A DNA stretch of 34,450 nt. Source: Myxococcota bacterium (GTDB lineage Bacteria; Myxococcota_A; UBA9160; UBA4427). The notes under the pieces are model-generated. The model was not told the DNA's origin, searched no databases, and saw only the letters and a list, made by a program, of their open reading frames with translations. Both the position numbers and the translations under genes were made by a program. This document shows positions 5,480 through 34,450 of the stretch, in pieces. Position 1 is the first letter of the stretch; every line of letters begins with the position of its first letter. The stretch covers positions 1-34,450 of the forward strand of contig JANQSB010000443.1 in the NCBI GenBank assembly GCA_028284295.1. Direction: 5' to 3'.

Positions 5480-6394
5480 TTGCAGGCCGATCCCCGTCGC
5501 GGGCTTCTCTTCGCCCTCGCTTCGACCGGGGGTATCGCGGGCTTCGTGGTGCCCTGGAAGGTGGCGAGCGAGTACGGCGCGAGCCACGTCAACGCGCTGA
5601 TCCTGCTGGTCGCGGCGGCGCTCTTCAACACCGCGCTCGGCGCGGCGCAGCAGCAGGCGCTGCCCCGCTTCGGCGGCTTCGACCTGCGCTTCGCCGCGTT
5701 GCTGGCCCTGCTGACGCTGGCGGGCAATCTGGCCAGCGCCGCGGCCATCGCGGTGCTCTCCCCCGCCGTGCTCACGGTGGTGCAGCGCAGCGAGGTGATC
5801 CTGGTCGCCCTCCTGGCCTGGCCGCTGATCGGAGAGCGTGTCGACGGACGCTTCTGGATCGGTGCCGCGATCGCCGGTGCGGGTCTGGTGGTCCTGCAGG
5901 ACCCCCTCGCGGCACCCGTCGGCGAAGGCCGGTGGGGTGCGGCGGGCATGGGCTGGGCCGCGTTCTCGGCGTTCTGCTTCAGCAGCATGGCTGTCTTCAC
6001 CCGCAAGTACGTCCAGCGCATCGACGTCGTCTCCGTGAACGCCCTGCGCCTCTGGATGTCGGTGGCCCTGTGGTTCGTCGTCAACGGGGTGCCCGACGAG
6101 CTGCTGAACGCGGCGCCCGAGCAGGTCTTGTATGCGAGTCTCGCCGGCTTCTTCGGGCCCTTTCTGGGTCGTCTCGCGATGATGAACGCGGCACGTCATC
6201 TCGAGGCGCGCTTCATCGCGCTCGCCACCCTGGCCGCTCCGCCGGTCACCTTGCTGCTCGCCTTCGTGCTGCTGGGGGACCTGCCCTCTGCCCGCGAGAT
6301 CACGGGCGGCGCCATCATGCTCGTGGGAATCGCCCTGCCCCTCGGATTGCGCGCGCTCTCCGGAGGCGCCGCCGGACGCGATCGCGAGGACTGA
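5480..6394 (+). CDS. EamA/DMT-family transporter
   Basis: The 304-residue product is almost entirely hydrophobic, with about ten predicted helices in two EamA-like halves, the usual size and layout of drug/metabolite transporters. The second half contains RARHLEARFIALATLAAPP-like sequence ending in LGDLPSAREITGGAIMLVGI, typical of the last two helices of this family. The chosen start is TTG at 5480, because no ATG lies near the start of the first helix; this start is uncertain. It lies 33 bases after the SDR gene and may be co-transcribed with it. Substrate and direction of transport are unknown. Confidence 0.82.
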   Translation: MQADPRRGLLFALASTGGIAGFVVPWKVASEYGASHVNALILLVAAALFNTALGAAQQQALPRFGGFDLRFAALLALLTLAGNLASAAAIAVLSPAVLTVVQRSEVILVALLAWPLIGERVDGRFWIGAAIAGAGLVVLQDPLAAPVGEGRWGAAGMGWAAFSAFCFSSMAVFTRKYVQRIDVVSVNALRLWMSVALWFVVNGVPDELLNAAPEQVLYASLAGFFGPFLGRLAMMNAARHLEARFIALATLAAPPVTLLLAFVLLGDLPSAREITGGAIMLVGIALPLGLRALSGGAAGRDRED

Positions 6395-28384: not shown

Positions 28385-29740
28385 CTACTCGGTGGCGCCG
28401 GGGCTCCGATAGGCGTCGCACTCGTTCGGAATCGGGCTTCCGTCGCCCAGGGAGCGCGCCAGCACGAAGAGGTCGGCGACCGTGCAGTCCGTGGCTCCCC
28501 CATCCGAGGGGCCGATGACGTTGCAGCGACGCTCTTCGAAGCTCGTCTGCGGACTCGCGCCGACCACGAAGCGACGGGCCTCTTCCAGGTCGGCGGCCGT
28601 CACGCCACCGATCTCGTCGACGTTTCCGCACTGGCAGACGTCGCCGCCGGGGAAGACGTCGCTCTCTTCCTGGCCCGGGTTGAAGATGAAGATGCAGTTG
28701 TCGACGCCGTCGAGGTCGGCGTCCGAGTCCGTGTCGGGGTCGTTGGGGTTCGAGCCGATCCCGACCTCCTCGCTGTCGCTGAGGGTGTCCGAGTCCGTGT
28801 CGGCCGAACGGGGATCGGTGCCGGTGTCGTTCTCGTCGATGAAGACACCGCTGTCGGTCTCGACGTCGTTCGCGAGACCGTCCCCGTCGATGTCGGGGTC
28901 GCAGAGGTCTCCGAGGCCGTCCCCGTCCACGTTGCCCTGCCGGCCGTTCCCGACACCCGGGCACAGGTCCGAGCCCGGCTCCACGGCGTGGAGGGCGTTG
29001 CGACCGATGGCTCCCGCCCAGGCCAGGTCCATCGCGCTGCCGTCGATGGCGAGCTCGAAGCTCGGGCCCGTCGATTCGTACTCGAAGGCATCGGCCGGCT
29101 CGCCCAGGCTGCCGCCGAGCGATTCGGGCTGGTCGAGGGAGAGCAGCAGGTGCCCGCTCGAGAGCCGGTGCAGGGCGTCGACGTCCGACCCGGAAGACAG
29201 ACCCTCGCCGTCGCCGTCGAAGACGACCACGGCGGAGGGCGAGCTGGACCACTGGACGACGTCCTCGGGCCACACCGTCGTGCCCTCCAGCACCACGACC
29301 GTGTCGAAGGAGAGCAGCAGGTCCGACCCGCTCCGGCCGACGGCGTCGACGTTCACCCCGGCACCGAGGCCCCGCGCGGAGGCGTCGAAGACCACCACGT
29401 AGCTCTCCGCATCCAGGTCGTAGCTCACCACGTCGCCGGGCTCGACGAAGGTCCCGCCCAGGTCGGCGGGCTGATCGAGGGAGAAGAAGGCCAGGCCGTT
29501 CAGGTCGAGATGGAGGGCGTCCACGTCCACGCTCGCTGGCAGGGCTCCCAGCTCGACGGTGTTGGAGGCTCCGGGCGGGTCCTCGCTGACGGCCTGCTCG
29601 GGACCCACCAGCAGCGCTCCGCCACCGAGGGAGAGCAGCTGGTCGGCCGAGCTCGTCACGTCGGCCAGGGGGGTGGCCGCACCGGCCAGAGGCGCCGCGA
29701 AGAGCAGGCAGAGCCCGAGAGAAAGGGCCGCGGCGCGCAC
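28385..29740 (-). CDS. Secreted protein with three internal repeats, TSP3 calcium repeats and a dockerin-like tail
   Basis: The GTG at 29740 gives 451 residues with a signal peptide ending near LAGAA (18-22). Three degenerate repeats of about 57 residues follow (71-128, 129-184, 186-243). Each has a VDAL/VDAV start, an LLLSLDQP/FFSLDQP strand, LGGTFVEP or EGTTVWPED and a VVVFDG-type strand. Residues 270-345 are Asp-rich thrombospondin type 3 repeats (NVDGDGLGDLCDPDIDGDGL, DTDSDTLSDSEE, DPDTDSDADLDGVDN). Residues 370-435 hold two half-repeats resembling a dockerin (GGVTAADLEEARRFV and ATDCTVADLFVLARSL). Calcium binding is likely. It is last in a three-gene operon, one base after the preceding stop codon. 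Probable surface or matrix protein; ligand unknown. Confidence 0.8.
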   Translation of the reverse strand: MRAAALSLGLCLLFAAPLAGAATPLADVTSSADQLLSLGGGALLVGPEQAVSEDPPGASNTVELGALPASVDVDALHLDLNGLAFFSLDQPADLGGTFVEPGDVVSYDLDAESYVVVFDASARGLGAGVNVDAVGRSGSDLLLSFDTVVVLEGTTVWPEDVVQWSSSPSAVVVFDGDGEGLSSGSDVDALHRLSSGHLLLSLDQPESLGGSLGEPADAFEYESTGPSFELAIDGSAMDLAWAGAIGRNALHAVEPGSDLCPGVGNGRQGNVDGDGLGDLCDPDIDGDGLANDVETDSGVFIDENDTGTDPRSADTDSDTLSDSEEVGIGSNPNDPDTDSDADLDGVDNCIFIFNPGQEESDVFPGGDVCQCGNVDEIGGVTAADLEEARRFVVGASPQTSFEERRCNVIGPSDGGATDCTVADLFVLARSLGDGSPIPNECDAYRSPGATE

Positions 29741-29741
29741 C

Positions 29742-30788
29742 CTACTCGACGACCTCGCAGGTCCCCGGCTCGCAGAAGTTGTCGAGCAGGTTCGTGAAGA
29801 AGTAGCCGGAGAGCGATCCGCGGAGGATGTCGCCGTCCCCGTCCTGGTCGTTGTAGCTGAAGCTGTTGAGGCCCACGCCCTGGTTGGTGCGAAGGGTCAG
29901 GATGCCGTCGTTGTCGTTGCTGAGGAGCAGATTTCCGTAGATGAGCGCGTGGTGGCTGCCCACCGAGATGCCGTTGAGCGTGTTGTCGAGAGAGACGTTG
30001 TAGCGGAAGATCATGCTCTCGCCGCCGCCCAGCCCCGTGCCTCCGTTGTCGCCGGAGAGGTTGGAGACGATGGTGCTGTTGCCGCTGAGGGTGATCCCCC
30101 AGCCGCCGTTGCTCTTCGCGATGTTGTGCTGGGAGCTGGTCGCGTCCTTGCCGAAGATGCCGTGGCCGGTGTTCCGCCAGCTGATGTTGCCCGTATGGAC
30201 ATCGCCCTTCTGTCCGGAGGACAGTCCATTGCCGCCGTTGTGGTGGACGAGGTTGTCGAACATGGTGCCGAACTGGTTGACGATGACTCCCGCGCCGCCG
30301 TTGCGGGCGGCCCGGCAGCGGATCACCGTGGCCCGGTTGTCGAGCCGGATGCCGACACCTCCGTTGTCGACCGCGGTGACAGCCTCGACGTGCACGAGGT
30401 CGGCGGTGGGGGAGTCGATCCCGTCCCCTCCCATGCCCCGGATGATCCCGTTCCGGATCGAGTGGCCCAGCCCCGCGAGGATCTCGATGCCGTTGCCGTT
30501 TCCCGCGCTACCGGGCCCGACGATCGAGAAGCCGTTCAGGTCGATGAAGACGGCGTCGCTGCTGTTGACCGTGATGGCCGTGGTGTTCGGCGGGTCGGCC
30601 GCGCCCGTCACGTCGAGGTTGCTCGTGAGCCGGTAGGTGCCGGCCTGGGTGATGTCGAAGGGGAAGCCGCCCGACCCTTCGACCCGGGCCTGATTGACGA
30701 GCACCACGCCTTCCGCGCCGAGCGCGGGAGTGGCGAAGATCAGGAGCAGGCCGGACAGCAGGGCGAGTCGTGTGTGTCGCGTGTCCAT
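29742..30788 (-). CDS. Secreted right-handed parallel beta-helix protein
   Basis: The product has 348 residues with an N-terminal signal peptide ending near PALGA (21-25). From about residue 40 it shows repeated turns with N-G-G, D-N-G-G and H-N-G-G spacings of about 22-24 residues (for example VDNGGVGIRLDN, ARNGGAGVIVN, KSNGGWGITLSGN, DNGGTGLGGG), typical of pectate-lyase-like beta-helices. No catalytic signature for polysaccharide lyases or glycosidases is evident, so a binding or structural role is as likely as an enzymatic one. A strong AAGGAGAGGAG lies directly before the ATG. It lies ten bases after another beta-helix gene, and a tandem duplication is likely because both start with GLVLVNQA/IQISQTAA-like and LTSNLDVTG/LVSDLDLTG segments. 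Confidence 0.82.
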   Translation of the reverse strand: MDTRHTRLALLSGLLLIFATPALGAEGVVLVNQARVEGSGGFPFDITQAGTYRLTSNLDVTGAADPPNTTAITVNSSDAVFIDLNGFSIVGPGSAGNGNGIEILAGLGHSIRNGIIRGMGGDGIDSPTADLVHVEAVTAVDNGGVGIRLDNRATVIRCRAARNGGAGVIVNQFGTMFDNLVHHNGGNGLSSGQKGDVHTGNISWRNTGHGIFGKDATSSQHNIAKSNGGWGITLSGNSTIVSNLSGDNGGTGLGGGESMIFRYNVSLDNTLNGISVGSHHALIYGNLLLSNDNDGILTLRTNQGVGLNSFSYNDQDGDGDILRGSLSGYFFTNLLDNFCEPGTCEVVE

Positions 30789-30798
30789 CTCCTCTCCT

Positions 30799-31875
30799 TC
30801 AGCAGCTCGTGTTGCTGCCGCACACGTTGGATTCGAGGGTGTAGCCGTTCAGCGGATTGCTGCTGAACACGTTGAGGCCGTAAGGCTGCTGCACGGTCAG
30901 GTAGAGCGGGTAGCCGCTGTTGCCCCGGGCGACGTTCTCGAGGATCAGGACTCCGCGACTCGAGCCGTTCATGTGGTAGCCGTCCCCGTCGTTGTTGAGG
31001 GCGCTGTTGCCGTGGAGCAGGGTCCCGTTCTCGAACTCGAAGCCCATCGTGTTGCTCTCGTAGGCGGTGCTCGAGTCGACGAGCATTCCCTTCGAGGTGG
31101 ACACGAAGCCGCGGCCGTTCACCCAGGCGTTGGTGTTGTGGACCAGCATGTAGCCGCTGCCCTGGACGGCGGCGTCGCTCGCGTAGCGGACACTGCTCGC
31201 GTCCACGAGCAGTGCCGCATCGGAGCCCGAGAACGCGCCGTAGATGCCGTCGCCGCCAGTCGTCACGATGCGCGCGTTCGAGACCCGGCACGGGCCCCAG
31301 CAGGTGACTCCGTTCGCGGCCAGGTCCTGCATGGCCACGTCGTGAACCCGGGAGCCGTCACCCACGTAGATCCCGGTGCCGCCTCCGTGGCGCACCGTGA
31401 CCGACTCGACGGTAGCCCCGTCGCCGAGGATCACGCCGTGGCGCCCCATACCGGAGATGGACCCGTTTCGGACGCTGACGCCTTCCTGGTTCAGTCCGTA
31501 GATGGCGTCCCCGTTGGCCGTGTAGGTGCAGTTCACGCTACCCGCCTCGCTGGACGTGCTGGTCGTGGTGCAGTTGTTGGTCCCCTTGATGGTGTGGCCG
31601 CCCATGTCGAGGGTGACCCAGTCCGCGGTGATCTCGATCGCGGTCGTGAACTGGGGGTTCAGCTCGCCCGTCAGGTCGAGATCGCTGACGAGCACGTAGC
31701 TTCCCGAGCTCGCGATGGTGATCGGGAAGCCGGGCGCGTCGCCGGCGAGGCGCCCGGTCGTCGCCGCGGTCTGACTGATCTGGATGCGACCGTCCGTCGC
31801 CCGGGCGGGCTCGGGAGTGACGAGGCCCGCCGTGAGTGTCGCCACCAGGAAGAGGACGCTGTGGGAGAGCTTCAT
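30799..31875 (-). CDS. Secreted right-handed parallel beta-helix protein, first gene of the operon
   Basis: From the ATG at 31875 the product has 358 residues with a signal peptide (hydrophobic 7-18, cleavage near PARAT at 23-27). The N-terminal lead-in GSYVLVSDLDLTGE followed by AIEITADWVTLDMGGHTIKG (about 58-95) has the same plan as in the next protein. It gives way to beta-helix turns such as NGSISGMGRHGVILGDGATV and HGGGTGIYVGDGSRV. Cysteine pairs occur at NNCTTT/VNCTYT, TCWGPC and the C-terminal VCGSNTSC, suggesting disulfides in an oxidising compartment. No lyase or hydrolase active site is recognised. It is separated from the next gene by ten bases and has a GGAG before the ATG. Confidence 0.82.
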   Translation of the reverse strand: MKLSHSVLFLVATLTAGLVTPEPARATDGRIQISQTAATTGRLAGDAPGFPITIASSGSYVLVSDLDLTGELNPQFTTAIEITADWVTLDMGGHTIKGTNNCTTTSTSSEAGSVNCTYTANGDAIYGLNQEGVSVRNGSISGMGRHGVILGDGATVESVTVRHGGGTGIYVGDGSRVHDVAMQDLAANGVTCWGPCRVSNARIVTTGGDGIYGAFSGSDAALLVDASSVRYASDAAVQGSGYMLVHNTNAWVNGRGFVSTSKGMLVDSSTAYESNTMGFEFENGTLLHGNSALNNDGDGYHMNGSSRGVLILENVARGNSGYPLYLTVQQPYGLNVFSSNPLNGYTLESNVCGSNTSC

Positions 31876-32282
31876 CGGGGCTCCGGTGCAGGGATCGGGT
31901 TTCGAGGGACCTTGGCCTAACAGATTGTGGGCGCGGATGACGCCGGGCGCCATGAACCACTTAACAACAGGCGACCCTCGACTTCCCGCTCGCCGGGTGG
32001 CCGATTCCGGCCATCCCGACGCCCCGGCGCCGTCGGGCGGGGCGGAGTGCCCCAAGACCGCACCGACCCGGGGTCCCGAAGCGGGACGGCCGACCGAACA
32101 GCCTTCTCGTCCGGACGCTTGCGTTCCCCGAAAAGCCTGCAAATGCAGGGCCTTGGCGGCCCGCTTGCGGGTTCCGACGCGAGGTATGGAATCGGTAAGG
32201 GCGCGGTAACGCGCGCCACCCGCCTTCTGGCGATGTTCCCGTCGTCCTTCGGCACACCTCAAACCTTCAGGGAGCAATCGCA
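31876..32282. other. 407-base non-coding divergent region rich in inverted repeats
   Basis: No credible gene lies between the beta-helix operon and mddA; open frames here lack ribosome sites and family signals. Dyads seen: CGGGTGGCCG (31994-32003) with CGGCCATCCCG (32008-32018), one bulge; GTCCCG/CGGGAC (32073-32087); CCTGCA-AA-TGCAGG (32136-32149); GGGCC/GGCCC (32148-32162); CCCGC/GCGGG (32160-32171); and GCGCG-GTAA-CGCGC (32201-32214). The mddA ribosome site AGGGAG is near 32269. No known riboswitch consensus was recognised. Confidence 0.6.
32136..32171. promoter_or_regulatory. Cluster of three overlapping inverted repeats upstream of mddA
   Basis: CCTGCAAATGCAGG (32136-32149), GGGCC-TTGGC-GGCCC (32148-32162) and CCCGCTTGCGGG (32160-32171) overlap by two to three bases each. 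They could be operator half-sites or alternative RNA stems. The first and third have very short spacers, which favours a DNA-binding site. Confidence 0.35.
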
Positions 32283-33050
32283 ATGAAGCGCGCGGCCGTC
32301 CTCGTCTACGGATTCGCCTGTTACGGCATCTTCTTCGCCACCTTCCTCTACTCCATCGGGTTCATCGGAAACCTCGCCGTCCCCAAGTCGGTCGACTCGG
32401 GCCCGGCGGTCGACTGGAGCCTCGCCGTCGCCGTGAACCTGGCGCTGCTCGGAGTCTTCGCCCTCCAGCACAGCGTCATGGCGCGTCCCTTCTTCAAGCG
32501 CTGGATCACACGCAGCATCCCGCAGCCCGCCGAGCGGCCGACCTACGTGCTGGCGAGCAGCGCGGCGCTGGCGCTGCTGTACTGGGGCTGGGAGCCGCTG
32601 CCCGAGCTGGTCTTCTCCGTCCAGAGCGAGATGCTCCGGAGCGCGTTGACCGCGCTCTTCTTCGGCGGCGTGGGCCTGGTCCTCTACTCGACCTTCCTGA
32701 TCGACCACTTCGACCTGTTCGGCCTGCGCCAGGTGATCCTCTACTTCCAGGACCGGCCCTACACGGAGAAGAACTTCGTCACGCCCTCGCTCTACCGCTA
32801 CATCCGCCACCCGCTCTACGTCGGCTGGTTCGTCACCTTCTGGGCCACCCCGGACATGAGCGTCGGGCATCTGCTGCTCGCTCTCGGCACGACCGCGTAC
32901 ATCCTGGTGGCCATCGTCTTCGAGGAGCGGGATCTGGGCGAGCTGCTCGGAAGCGACTACCGCGAGTATCGCGAGCGCACGCCGAAGTTCGTACCCCGCG
33001 TCCGCAATCGCAGCAGCGAGCAGCCGGTGACTCTGGAGAGCGCCGTCTGA
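32283..33050 (+). CDS. mddA: Methanethiol S-methyltransferase (MddA-like)
   Basis: The 255-residue protein has about six hydrophobic segments and strong MddA-like blocks. These are FFATFLYSIGFIGNLAVPKS (17-36), LQHSVMARPFFKRW (61-74), STFLIDHFDLFGLRQV (136-151), LYRYIRHPLYVG (170-181), FWATPDMSVGHLL (186-198) and FEERDLGELLGSDYREYR (213-230). The RHPLY and EERDL blocks are the SAM-binding region shared with isoprenylcysteine and phospholipid N-methyltransferases. MddA methylates methanethiol with SAM to dimethyl sulfide, in the membrane. An NnrU/isoprenylcysteine-type methyltransferase of other specificity is possible, but the match along the whole length is good. AGGGAG precedes the ATG. The next gene is another SAM-dependent methyltransferase. 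Confidence 0.82.
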   Translation: MKRAAVLVYGFACYGIFFATFLYSIGFIGNLAVPKSVDSGPAVDWSLAVAVNLALLGVFALQHSVMARPFFKRWITRSIPQPAERPTYVLASSAALALLYWGWEPLPELVFSVQSEMLRSALTALFFGGVGLVLYSTFLIDHFDLFGLRQVILYFQDRPYTEKNFVTPSLYRYIRHPLYVGWFVTFWATPDMSVGHLLLALGTTAYILVAIVFEERDLGELLGSDYREYRERTPKFVPRVRNRSSEQPVTLESAV

Positions 33051-33057
33051 GACCACT

Positions 33058-33091
33058 CGGACGGGAGGCGCGGTGCCGCGCCTCCCGTCCG
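33058..33091 (+). terminator. Perfect 16-bp hairpin after mddA
   Basis: CGGACGGGAGGCGCGG (33058-33073) and CCGCGCCTCCCGTCCG (33076-33091) are exact complements around TG, seven bases after the mddA stop codon. There is no T tract. It may be a terminator, an attenuator or a 3'-end stabiliser that sets the ratio of mddA to the downstream gene. Confidence 0.6.
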
Positions 33092-33116
33092 GGCTTCCGA
33101 AACCTCCCACCCGCAA

Positions 33117-33131: not shown

Positions 33132-34199
33132 ATGACCCGAGAAATCGACAACGCCCGAGCCGAAGCCTTCGGAGAGAAGATGGTCGGCATCCTCAACGGG
33201 GCCGCCACCGCGCTGATGGTCTCGGTGGGCCACCGGACCGGCCTCTTCGACGTGATGAGCGGCCTCGACCCTCGCGAGAGTCAGGGGATCGCCGACGAGG
33301 CCGGCCTGCAGGAGCGCTACGTGCGCGAGTGGCTCGGTGCCATGGTGACCGGTGGCATCGTCGAGTACGACGAGAGCAGTGGCTGTTATCACCTGCCGCC
33401 CGAGCACGCCGCGAGCCTCACGCGCGAGGCCCGTCCCAACAACCTGGCCGCGACATGCCAGTGGATCCCGGTCCTCGGCGACGTGGAGGACCAGATCGTC
33501 TCGTGCTTCGAGCACGGCGGTGGCGTTCCCTACTCGAGCTATGAGCGCTTCCACGCGGTCATGGCCGAGGAGAGCGATCAGACCGTGGTCGCCGGGCTGC
33601 TCGAGCAGATCCTGCCCGGCGTGCCGGGACTGGTGGAGTCGCTCGAGCGCGGCATCGACCTCCTCGACGTGGGCTGCGGCAGCGCCAGGGCCATCAACGC
33701 CATGGCGGAGGCCTTCCCGAACAGCCGCTTCACGGGCTACGACCTCTCTTCGGAGGGGATCGCTGCCGGCAAGGCCGAGGCGGCGGCGCGCGGTCTCGAC
33801 AACGTGCATCTCGAGATCCGGGACGTCGCGGATCTCGGGATCGACGACGCCTTCGACGTGGTGACGGCCTTCGACGCGATCCACGACCAGGCCCGGCCAG
33901 ACGCCGTTCTCGCCGGAATCGCCGGAGCGTTGCGCGGCGATGGTCTCTTCCTGATGCAGGACATCGGCGGGTCGAGCCACGTCCACGAGGATCGCGCCAA
34001 TCCGATGGCACCCTTCCTCTACACGATCTCCTGCATGCACTGCATGACGGTCTCGCTCGCATCGGGTGGCGCCGGCCTCGGCGCCATGTGGGGCAAGGAG
34101 ACGGCCTGCAACATGCTGGCGAACGCCGGCTTCGGCAGCGTCGTCGTCAAGGAGCTGCCGCACGACGCGATGAACTACTACTACGTCGCCCGCAAGTAG
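33132..34199 (+). CDS. Class I SAM methyltransferase with winged-helix N-terminus (Rv2258c-like)
   Basis: The 355-residue cytosolic protein has two parts. Residues 5-110 resemble the winged-helix/dimerisation domain of O-methyltransferase-like proteins (GLFDVMSGLDPRESQGIADE, then LQERYVREWLGAMVTGGIVEY). The catalytic domain has motif I DVGCGSARAI (179-188), then GYDLS (202-206), VVTAFDAIHD and ALRGDGLFLMQDI. The plan is that of Rv2258c-type proteins, often annotated as transcriptional regulators although they bind SAM. The substrate is unknown. It lies 81 bases after mddA on the same strand, beyond a strong hairpin. The shared SAM chemistry may be chance or may reflect one sulfur or small-molecule methylation pathway. 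A good terminator follows. Confidence 0.85.
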   Translation: MTREIDNARAEAFGEKMVGILNGAATALMVSVGHRTGLFDVMSGLDPRESQGIADEAGLQERYVREWLGAMVTGGIVEYDESSGCYHLPPEHAASLTREARPNNLAATCQWIPVLGDVEDQIVSCFEHGGGVPYSSYERFHAVMAEESDQTVVAGLLEQILPGVPGLVESLERGIDLLDVGCGSARAINAMAEAFPNSRFTGYDLSSEGIAAGKAEAAARGLDNVHLEIRDVADLGIDDAFDVVTAFDAIHDQARPDAVLAGIAGALRGDGLFLMQDIGGSSHVHEDRANPMAPFLYTISCMHCMTVSLASGGAGLGAMWGKETACNMLANAGFGSVVVKELPHDAMNYYYVARK

Positions 34200-34311: not shown

Positions 34312-34450
34312 ATGATCTACCGATTCGGCCCCTTCGAGCTCGACGAGCAGGCCGGCGAGCTGCGGCGGGGCGGCCAGGCCGTCGCCATCCAGCCGAAGCC
34401 GCTGGCCCTGCTCTCCTTCCTGCTCCGGGAGCGGGGGCGGGTCGTTCCCC
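34312..34450 (+). CDS. Winged-helix transcriptional regulator, N-terminal fragment (3' truncated)
   Basis: The first 46 codons encode MIYRFGPFELDEQAGELRRG followed by GQAVAIQPKPLALLSFLLRERGRVV. This is the beginning of an OmpR/PhoB-type winged-helix DNA-binding domain, the YxFGxFxLDxxxxxLxRxG form that starts CadC/ToxR-like or TPR-containing regulators rather than response regulators. The remainder lies outside the window, so sensor domain, membrane anchor and target are unknown. It is separated from the methyltransferase by a terminator and has its own -10-like box. Confidence 0.8.
   Translation, partial: MIYRFGPFELDEQAGELRRGGQAVAIQPKPLALLSFLLRERGRVVP

Follow-up and report, generated by a model that had tools for sequence, protein, structure and literature searches.

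Among the closest described systems is AfsR, an activator with the domain order wHTH-BTA-NOD-TPR (wHTH, winged helix-turn-helix) that binds two 11-bp repeats overlapping the -35 position, and in which the NOD/TPR part is inhibitory until ATP binds (PMC10936776). In the SARP-LAL protein PimR one monomer binds per repeat, and the protein works best with three repeats (PMC5930380). Boxes of the PhoB/OmpR/KdpE type and activators of the CadC/ToxR type also pair a winged-helix domain with tandem 11-bp half-sites that lie ahead of a weak promoter. The genes mddA, mddH and mddM of the Mdd pathway have been described separately (PMC12904073); that paper attributes to earlier work an enhancement of mddA and mddH transcription by H2S and/or MeSH, and in the passages searched we found neither a regulator nor an operator of mddA, whereas the locus described here, which shares an MddA equivalog with that pathway, provides candidates for both.

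The window (the whole stretch analyzed, 34,450 nt of a Myxococcota bacterium) contains at 31876-32282 a region that is non-coding by gene context and separates a divergent beta-helix gene on the minus strand from mddA on the plus strand. It is 407 nt long, or 329 nt if an alternative upstream start of the minus-strand gene is used, and by a crude gene call no other gap in the window is as long, the second-longest being 194 nt, which bears out the original prediction of an exceptionally long non-coding stretch. The mddA gene (32283-33050, ATG at 32283) specifies a methanethiol S-methyltransferase (NCBIfam equivalog NF045656, 321.9 bits, cut-off 270). Next on the same strand are its conserved partner, the gene for an Rv2258c-like SAM methyltransferase with HTH_65 and Methyltransf_31 domains (33132-34199; PDB 5f8c, E 9e-114), and the start of a gene for a regulator (34312-34450) with the domain order wHTH (Trans_reg_C)-AAA_16-TPR, as read from the orthologue of the sister genome G001. 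The contig ends within the regulator gene, the remainder of which was found on contig C566 (G000), starting with an exact 55-bp overlap; the whole protein is 1004 aa. The partner methyltransferase was considered as a possible MddM1 or MddM2 and rejected by size (355 aa against 204-210 aa, PMC12904073); it matches Rv2258c. The spacer between mddA and the methyltransferase gene carries at 33055-33093 a near-perfect 17-bp hairpin (z -5.95 relative to shuffles) without a T-run; a comparable hairpin is absent at that place in most relatives, and G019 has a long stem.

Overlooked in the original prediction are three 11-bp direct repeats at 32181-32213 on the plus strand: R1, GAGGTATGGAA (32181-32191), R2, TCGGTAAGGGC (32192-32202) and R3, GCGGTAACGCG (32203-32213), the last lying within a hairpin at 32201-32214. 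All three were delimited by ungapped alignment of 10-11 loci. The pattern CGGTAAN5CGGTAA is found once in the window, where 0.01 occurrences are expected with one mismatch allowed, and once without mismatch in the 5.85-Mb genome. A -10-like hexamer on the same strand, GATGTT (32232-32237), begins 29 bp from the R3 start. Setting this hexamer at -12 to -7 places the predicted transcription start at about 32244, and the repeats at -63 to -53 (R1), -52 to -42 (R2) and -41 to -31 (R3), so that R3 lies over the -35 position, where no match to a TTGACA-type hexamer was found. The predicted 39-nt leader of mddA (32244-32282, plus strand) contains an AGGGAG ribosome-binding site at 32269-32274.

We consider 32181-32237 to be an activator-dependent promoter of the mddA-methyltransferase(-regulator) operon, with the repeats probably bound by the neighboring regulator, and give this reading a probability of roughly 85% from the sequence comparisons described below. 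The three repeats share one face of the helix, where winged-helix domains of the OmpR/PhoB type are probably bound side by side. Since R3 covers the -35 position and there is no TTGACA-like hexamer, RNA polymerase would be brought by the bound regulator to the -10 hexamer, which lies 18 bp beyond R3, and repeats at -63 to -31 would have the placement expected of an activator that works by recruitment. The regulator's STAND ATPase and TPR portion may gate the promoter upon a signal, for which sulfide or methanethiol is the obvious guess. Judged from the same sequence features, the array may alternatively act in repression rather than activation.

To assess conservation, mddA orthologues were gathered from related genomes and their upstream regions compared. 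The trio of mddA, Rv2258c-like methyltransferase and wHTH-STAND-TPR regulator is present in eleven genomes, ten of which have testable upstream sequence (the contig of G059 ends at mddA), and the array is found before mddA or its operon in all ten, with mddA of the relatives 55% to 74% identical to the query. For example, the sister genome keeps ACGGTACGGAA ACGGTAAGGCC GCGGTAACGCG as the counterpart of GAGGTATGGAA TCGGTAAGGGC GCGGTAACGCG in the window. The three 11-bp units align without gaps in the ten loci, and the distance from the R3 start to xAxxxT is 29 bp in every one of them, the A and T being invariant and the hexamer otherwise loosely conserved. In the ten loci, alignment columns of the repeats and hexamer carry 0.9-1.1 bits of information each, versus 0.34-0.43 for those of the flanks and spacer. 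MAFFT gave the same register in 9/10 loci when applied to raw segments, and a gap-free alignment of 11 trimmed sequences (two added later); among 11 sequences, self-match at lag 11 is 0.60, while other lags give 0.13-0.38. A tandem operator for winged-helix proteins would show a 10-11 bp period and a fixed phase to a promoter without a good -35, and the array has these features. Related genomes are non-independent samples, but their flanks are at background level, indicating that there has been enough time for divergence despite this relatedness.

The regulator gene is third in the operon in seven genomes (the window, G001, G033, G034, G041, G088 and G090) and divergent from the operon in three (G019, G053 and G077). 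In G077, mddA apparently comes second in its operon, and the array precedes the first gene, lying between the operon and the divergent regulator, which indicates that the array goes with the promoter of the operon and not with the start codon of mddA. With a leave-one-out matrix, the true site ranked first in 10/10 loci of 10-34 kb. A strict motif was matched in 7/10 trio loci and in 2/21 other mddA loci (Fisher P 0.0013), these two being L064 and G075, the latter having a weaker array with a 30-bp phase before mddA and no regulator nearby. At L064 (Mangrovimicrobium sediminis, 5860-6000), which was absent from the results of a search within the window's own phylum, mddA has GGTCATGAAATGGTCATGG, again an 11-bp direct repeat. 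Just upstream of this mddA is a different, CadC-like wHTH-TPR gene; in its product the wHTH domain is followed by a hydrophobic segment that probably lies in the membrane. The locus looks like an independent pairing of mddA with a wHTH regulator.

Orthologues of the regulator (E up to 1e-150) were detected in 12/91 genomes, comprising the ten trio genomes, G008 and G076. In G008, the regulator gene is beside that of the methyltransferase, mddA is missing from the locus, and between the two genes is the array with the same 29-bp phase (best matrix site 19.8, runner-up -5.4). On contig C86 of G076, the regulator's neighbor is an mddA paralogue with 40% identity, which the array precedes by about 90 bp (best site 23.6, runner-up 7.8), and the second regulator copy of this genome (C162) has no such adjoining target gene and no site. 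Whole genomes were scanned with patterns and with a model based on sequence only. A strict composite pattern, requiring two repeats, the 29-bp phase and xAxxxT, gave 8 matches in 91 genomes, 5 before mddA and 3 in other promoters of G041, compared with 2 matches for the reversed pattern. The model recovered its training sites, as expected, along with further promoter-placed sites in G041, G008, G055 and G046; weaker matches are not all promoter-like, and those in G004 and G026 are doubtful. In G055 (L154, 6359-6736), the box persists upstream of a damaged mddA-like frame that lacks its middle. Boxes with the 29-bp phase in G041 precede a DUF3455-lipase pair (C240:34137), a thioesterase-like gene (C240:37196), and the genes for an RTX-repeat lipoprotein (C49:21290) and a beta-helix protein (C250:10992), and may represent a wider regulon.

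The array could be a wHTH box bound by a two-component response regulator, or by a paralogous wHTH protein encoded elsewhere, instead of the neighboring regulator. Such domains are numerous, and boxes without an adjacent regulator occur in G075, G055 and G046, and away from the regulator in G041; in particular, the G075 array and the distant G041 sites mean that the protein actually bound might be a paralogous regulator. We think this unlikely, given that the array is beside an orthologue of the regulator at 10/10 testable mddA loci and at two loci with a different target gene. The repeat variants also go with variants of the recognition helix: SLNRA is present in two regulators (G019 and G053), whose repeats are of the GGTC/GGTT type, and nearly all regulators with SLTRA or SLPRA go with mostly GGTA repeats. 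This correspondence is suggestive only, as numbers are small and phylogeny is uncontrolled. The array is very probably the docking site of the regulator that is encoded two genes downstream.

The domain content of the regulator agrees with such a role. Trans_reg_C (PF00486) scores above cut-off in the regulators of G001, G019 and G076, and in the PDB the DNA-binding domain finds matches among PhoP/KdpE-type response regulators and in CadC/ToxR. AAA_16 follows the wHTH domain in the G001 and G019 proteins (89.4 and 87.8 bits), and TPR_12 scores 29.9 bits in G001, where the cut-off is 30.1, with none reported in G019. The array resembles a box of the OmpR/PhoB or AfsR type, and the kind of system is already known. 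As in AfsR and the large SARPs, an OmpR-type winged helix precedes a STAND/NOD ATPase and TPR, the latter weak here (PMC10936776, PMC5930380), and the box of 11-bp direct repeats overlaps a -35 position with a poor hexamer; the triplet of repeats is like that of PimR (PMC5930380). In contrast to the AfsR family, Pfam detects no BTA domain in the G001 and G019 regulators, the distance from the end of the last heptamer to the -10 hexamer is 22 bp and not 8 (as defined in PMC10936776), the three repeats extend from -63 to -31 while the center of the afs box is at -29.5, and the system is found outside Actinomycetota, with a sulfur methyltransferase as its probable target. With no BTA domain detected and a different spacing to the -10, the mddA system is not a SARP by definition, but by analogy it probably works in the manner of AfsR and PimR. 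The difference from PhoB/OmpR/KdpE- and CadC/ToxR-type proteins is that no receiver domain is reported and an AAA_16 ATPase follows the wHTH domain.

The gap had originally been singled out for its inverted repeats, as a possible leader RNA, cis-regulatory element or small RNA gene. The three overlapping dyads (32136-32171, assigned to no strand), CCTGCAAATGCAGG (32136-32149), GGGCCTTGGCGGCCC (32148-32162) and CCCGCTTGCGGG (32160-32171), and the GCGCG-GTAA-CGCGC hairpin, GCGCGGTAACGCGC (32201-32214), are indeed present, but the excess over shuffled sequence is small and the claim holds only in a weaker form. Perfect stems of at least 5 bp number 12 in the gap versus 5.7 in dinucleotide shuffles (P 0.04), and as many occur in 9% of all 407-nt windows of this stretch; stems of at least 6 bp are not enriched (4 versus 1.8, P 0.16), and the gap has none of 7 bp. 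Sub-region 32136-32220 is denser in stems (7 versus 1.1, P 0.004), as a region picked post hoc. Folding of the whole gap as RNA is ordinary (z -0.97 for the plus strand and -0.64 for the minus strand, relative to shuffles), and sub-regions give z values between -0.9 and -1.8. RNA structure of the gap and its sub-regions was rejected as an explanation, as any excess over chance is too small to count.

A structured leader RNA or riboswitch controlling mddA in cis, such as one responsive to sulfur compounds or SAM, would draw on these mildly enriched dyads and on 32130-32225, which folds at z -1.83. However, Rfam gave no match to the gap, either at the gathering score or permissively (E up to 5), and the covariation whose absence the original prediction had set as a refuting condition did not appear: the hairpin pairs in 55.3% of cells across ten relatives versus 55.2% in shuffles, and RNAalifold found no consensus structure in the relatives' alignment. 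The hairpin with its GNRA-type loop proves to be the third DNA repeat plus flanking bases, and it is the repeat that is conserved and not the pairing. The dyads are not seen before mddA in relatives, the sister genome included, and are found only in this genome. The predicted 39-nt leader has no unusual fold (z 0.48) and excludes the structured part. A leader RNA is highly improbable. The length of the gap and the same dyads might also suggest a small RNA gene, an idea we find scarcely credible, as a sigma-70 and terminator scan of both strands of the gap returned nothing, no family was matched, and the region has no clear second copy in its own genome (best match 33 nt, E 0.004). What survives of the original proposal is a cis-regulatory element, acting as DNA and not as RNA.

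The dyads include a sequence, TTGGCGGCCCGCTTGC (32153-32168), that is a good match to the -24/-12 spacing of a sigma-54 promoter, which could drive mddA with the upstream dyads serving as sites for an enhancer-binding protein. About 0.39 such matches are expected by chance in the window, and the element is absent before mddA in the other loci examined, occurring only in this genome, so that this alternative also appears very unlikely. The divergent gene (30799-31875, ATG at 31875) specifies a right-handed beta-helix protein with a signal peptide (Pfam Beta_helix, 43.4 bits), and a search of the class's other 90 genomes found nothing matching it at E up to 1e-30; with no orthologue in the class, there was no relative's sequence against which to set the left half of the gap. 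No counterpart was found elsewhere for the left part (31876-32130) or the dyads, and the simplest view is that both belong to this divergent, genome-specific gene. The left 250-300 nt would then be chiefly its promoter region, although the sigma-70 scan did not locate the promoter itself. The gene is one of three tandem minus-strand genes for secreted proteins (28385-31875), two of them beta-helix/NosD-like and one with a TSP_3 match.

On land, MddA provides a main route to dimethylsulfide. The literature searched yielded neither a regulator nor an operator dedicated to mddA, which gives the operator described here a moderate interest. It also shows that, in GC-rich DNA, a hairpin with the appearance of a GNRA loop can be one unit of a protein-binding repeat. 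More speculatively, a widespread wHTH-STAND-TPR regulator might sense a volatile or toxic sulfur compound and switch on dimethylsulfide formation via the triple 11-bp box, with the same box wiring other genes in some genomes, such as G041; this would be a first sulfur-gas regulon of such architecture, a tentative idea that we hold to be possible but doubtful. With a specific DNA box, a specific regulator and the exact bases to mutate, control of mddA becomes directly testable, and the array with its probable regulator represents a first candidate on/off switch for dimethylsulfide-producing mddA.
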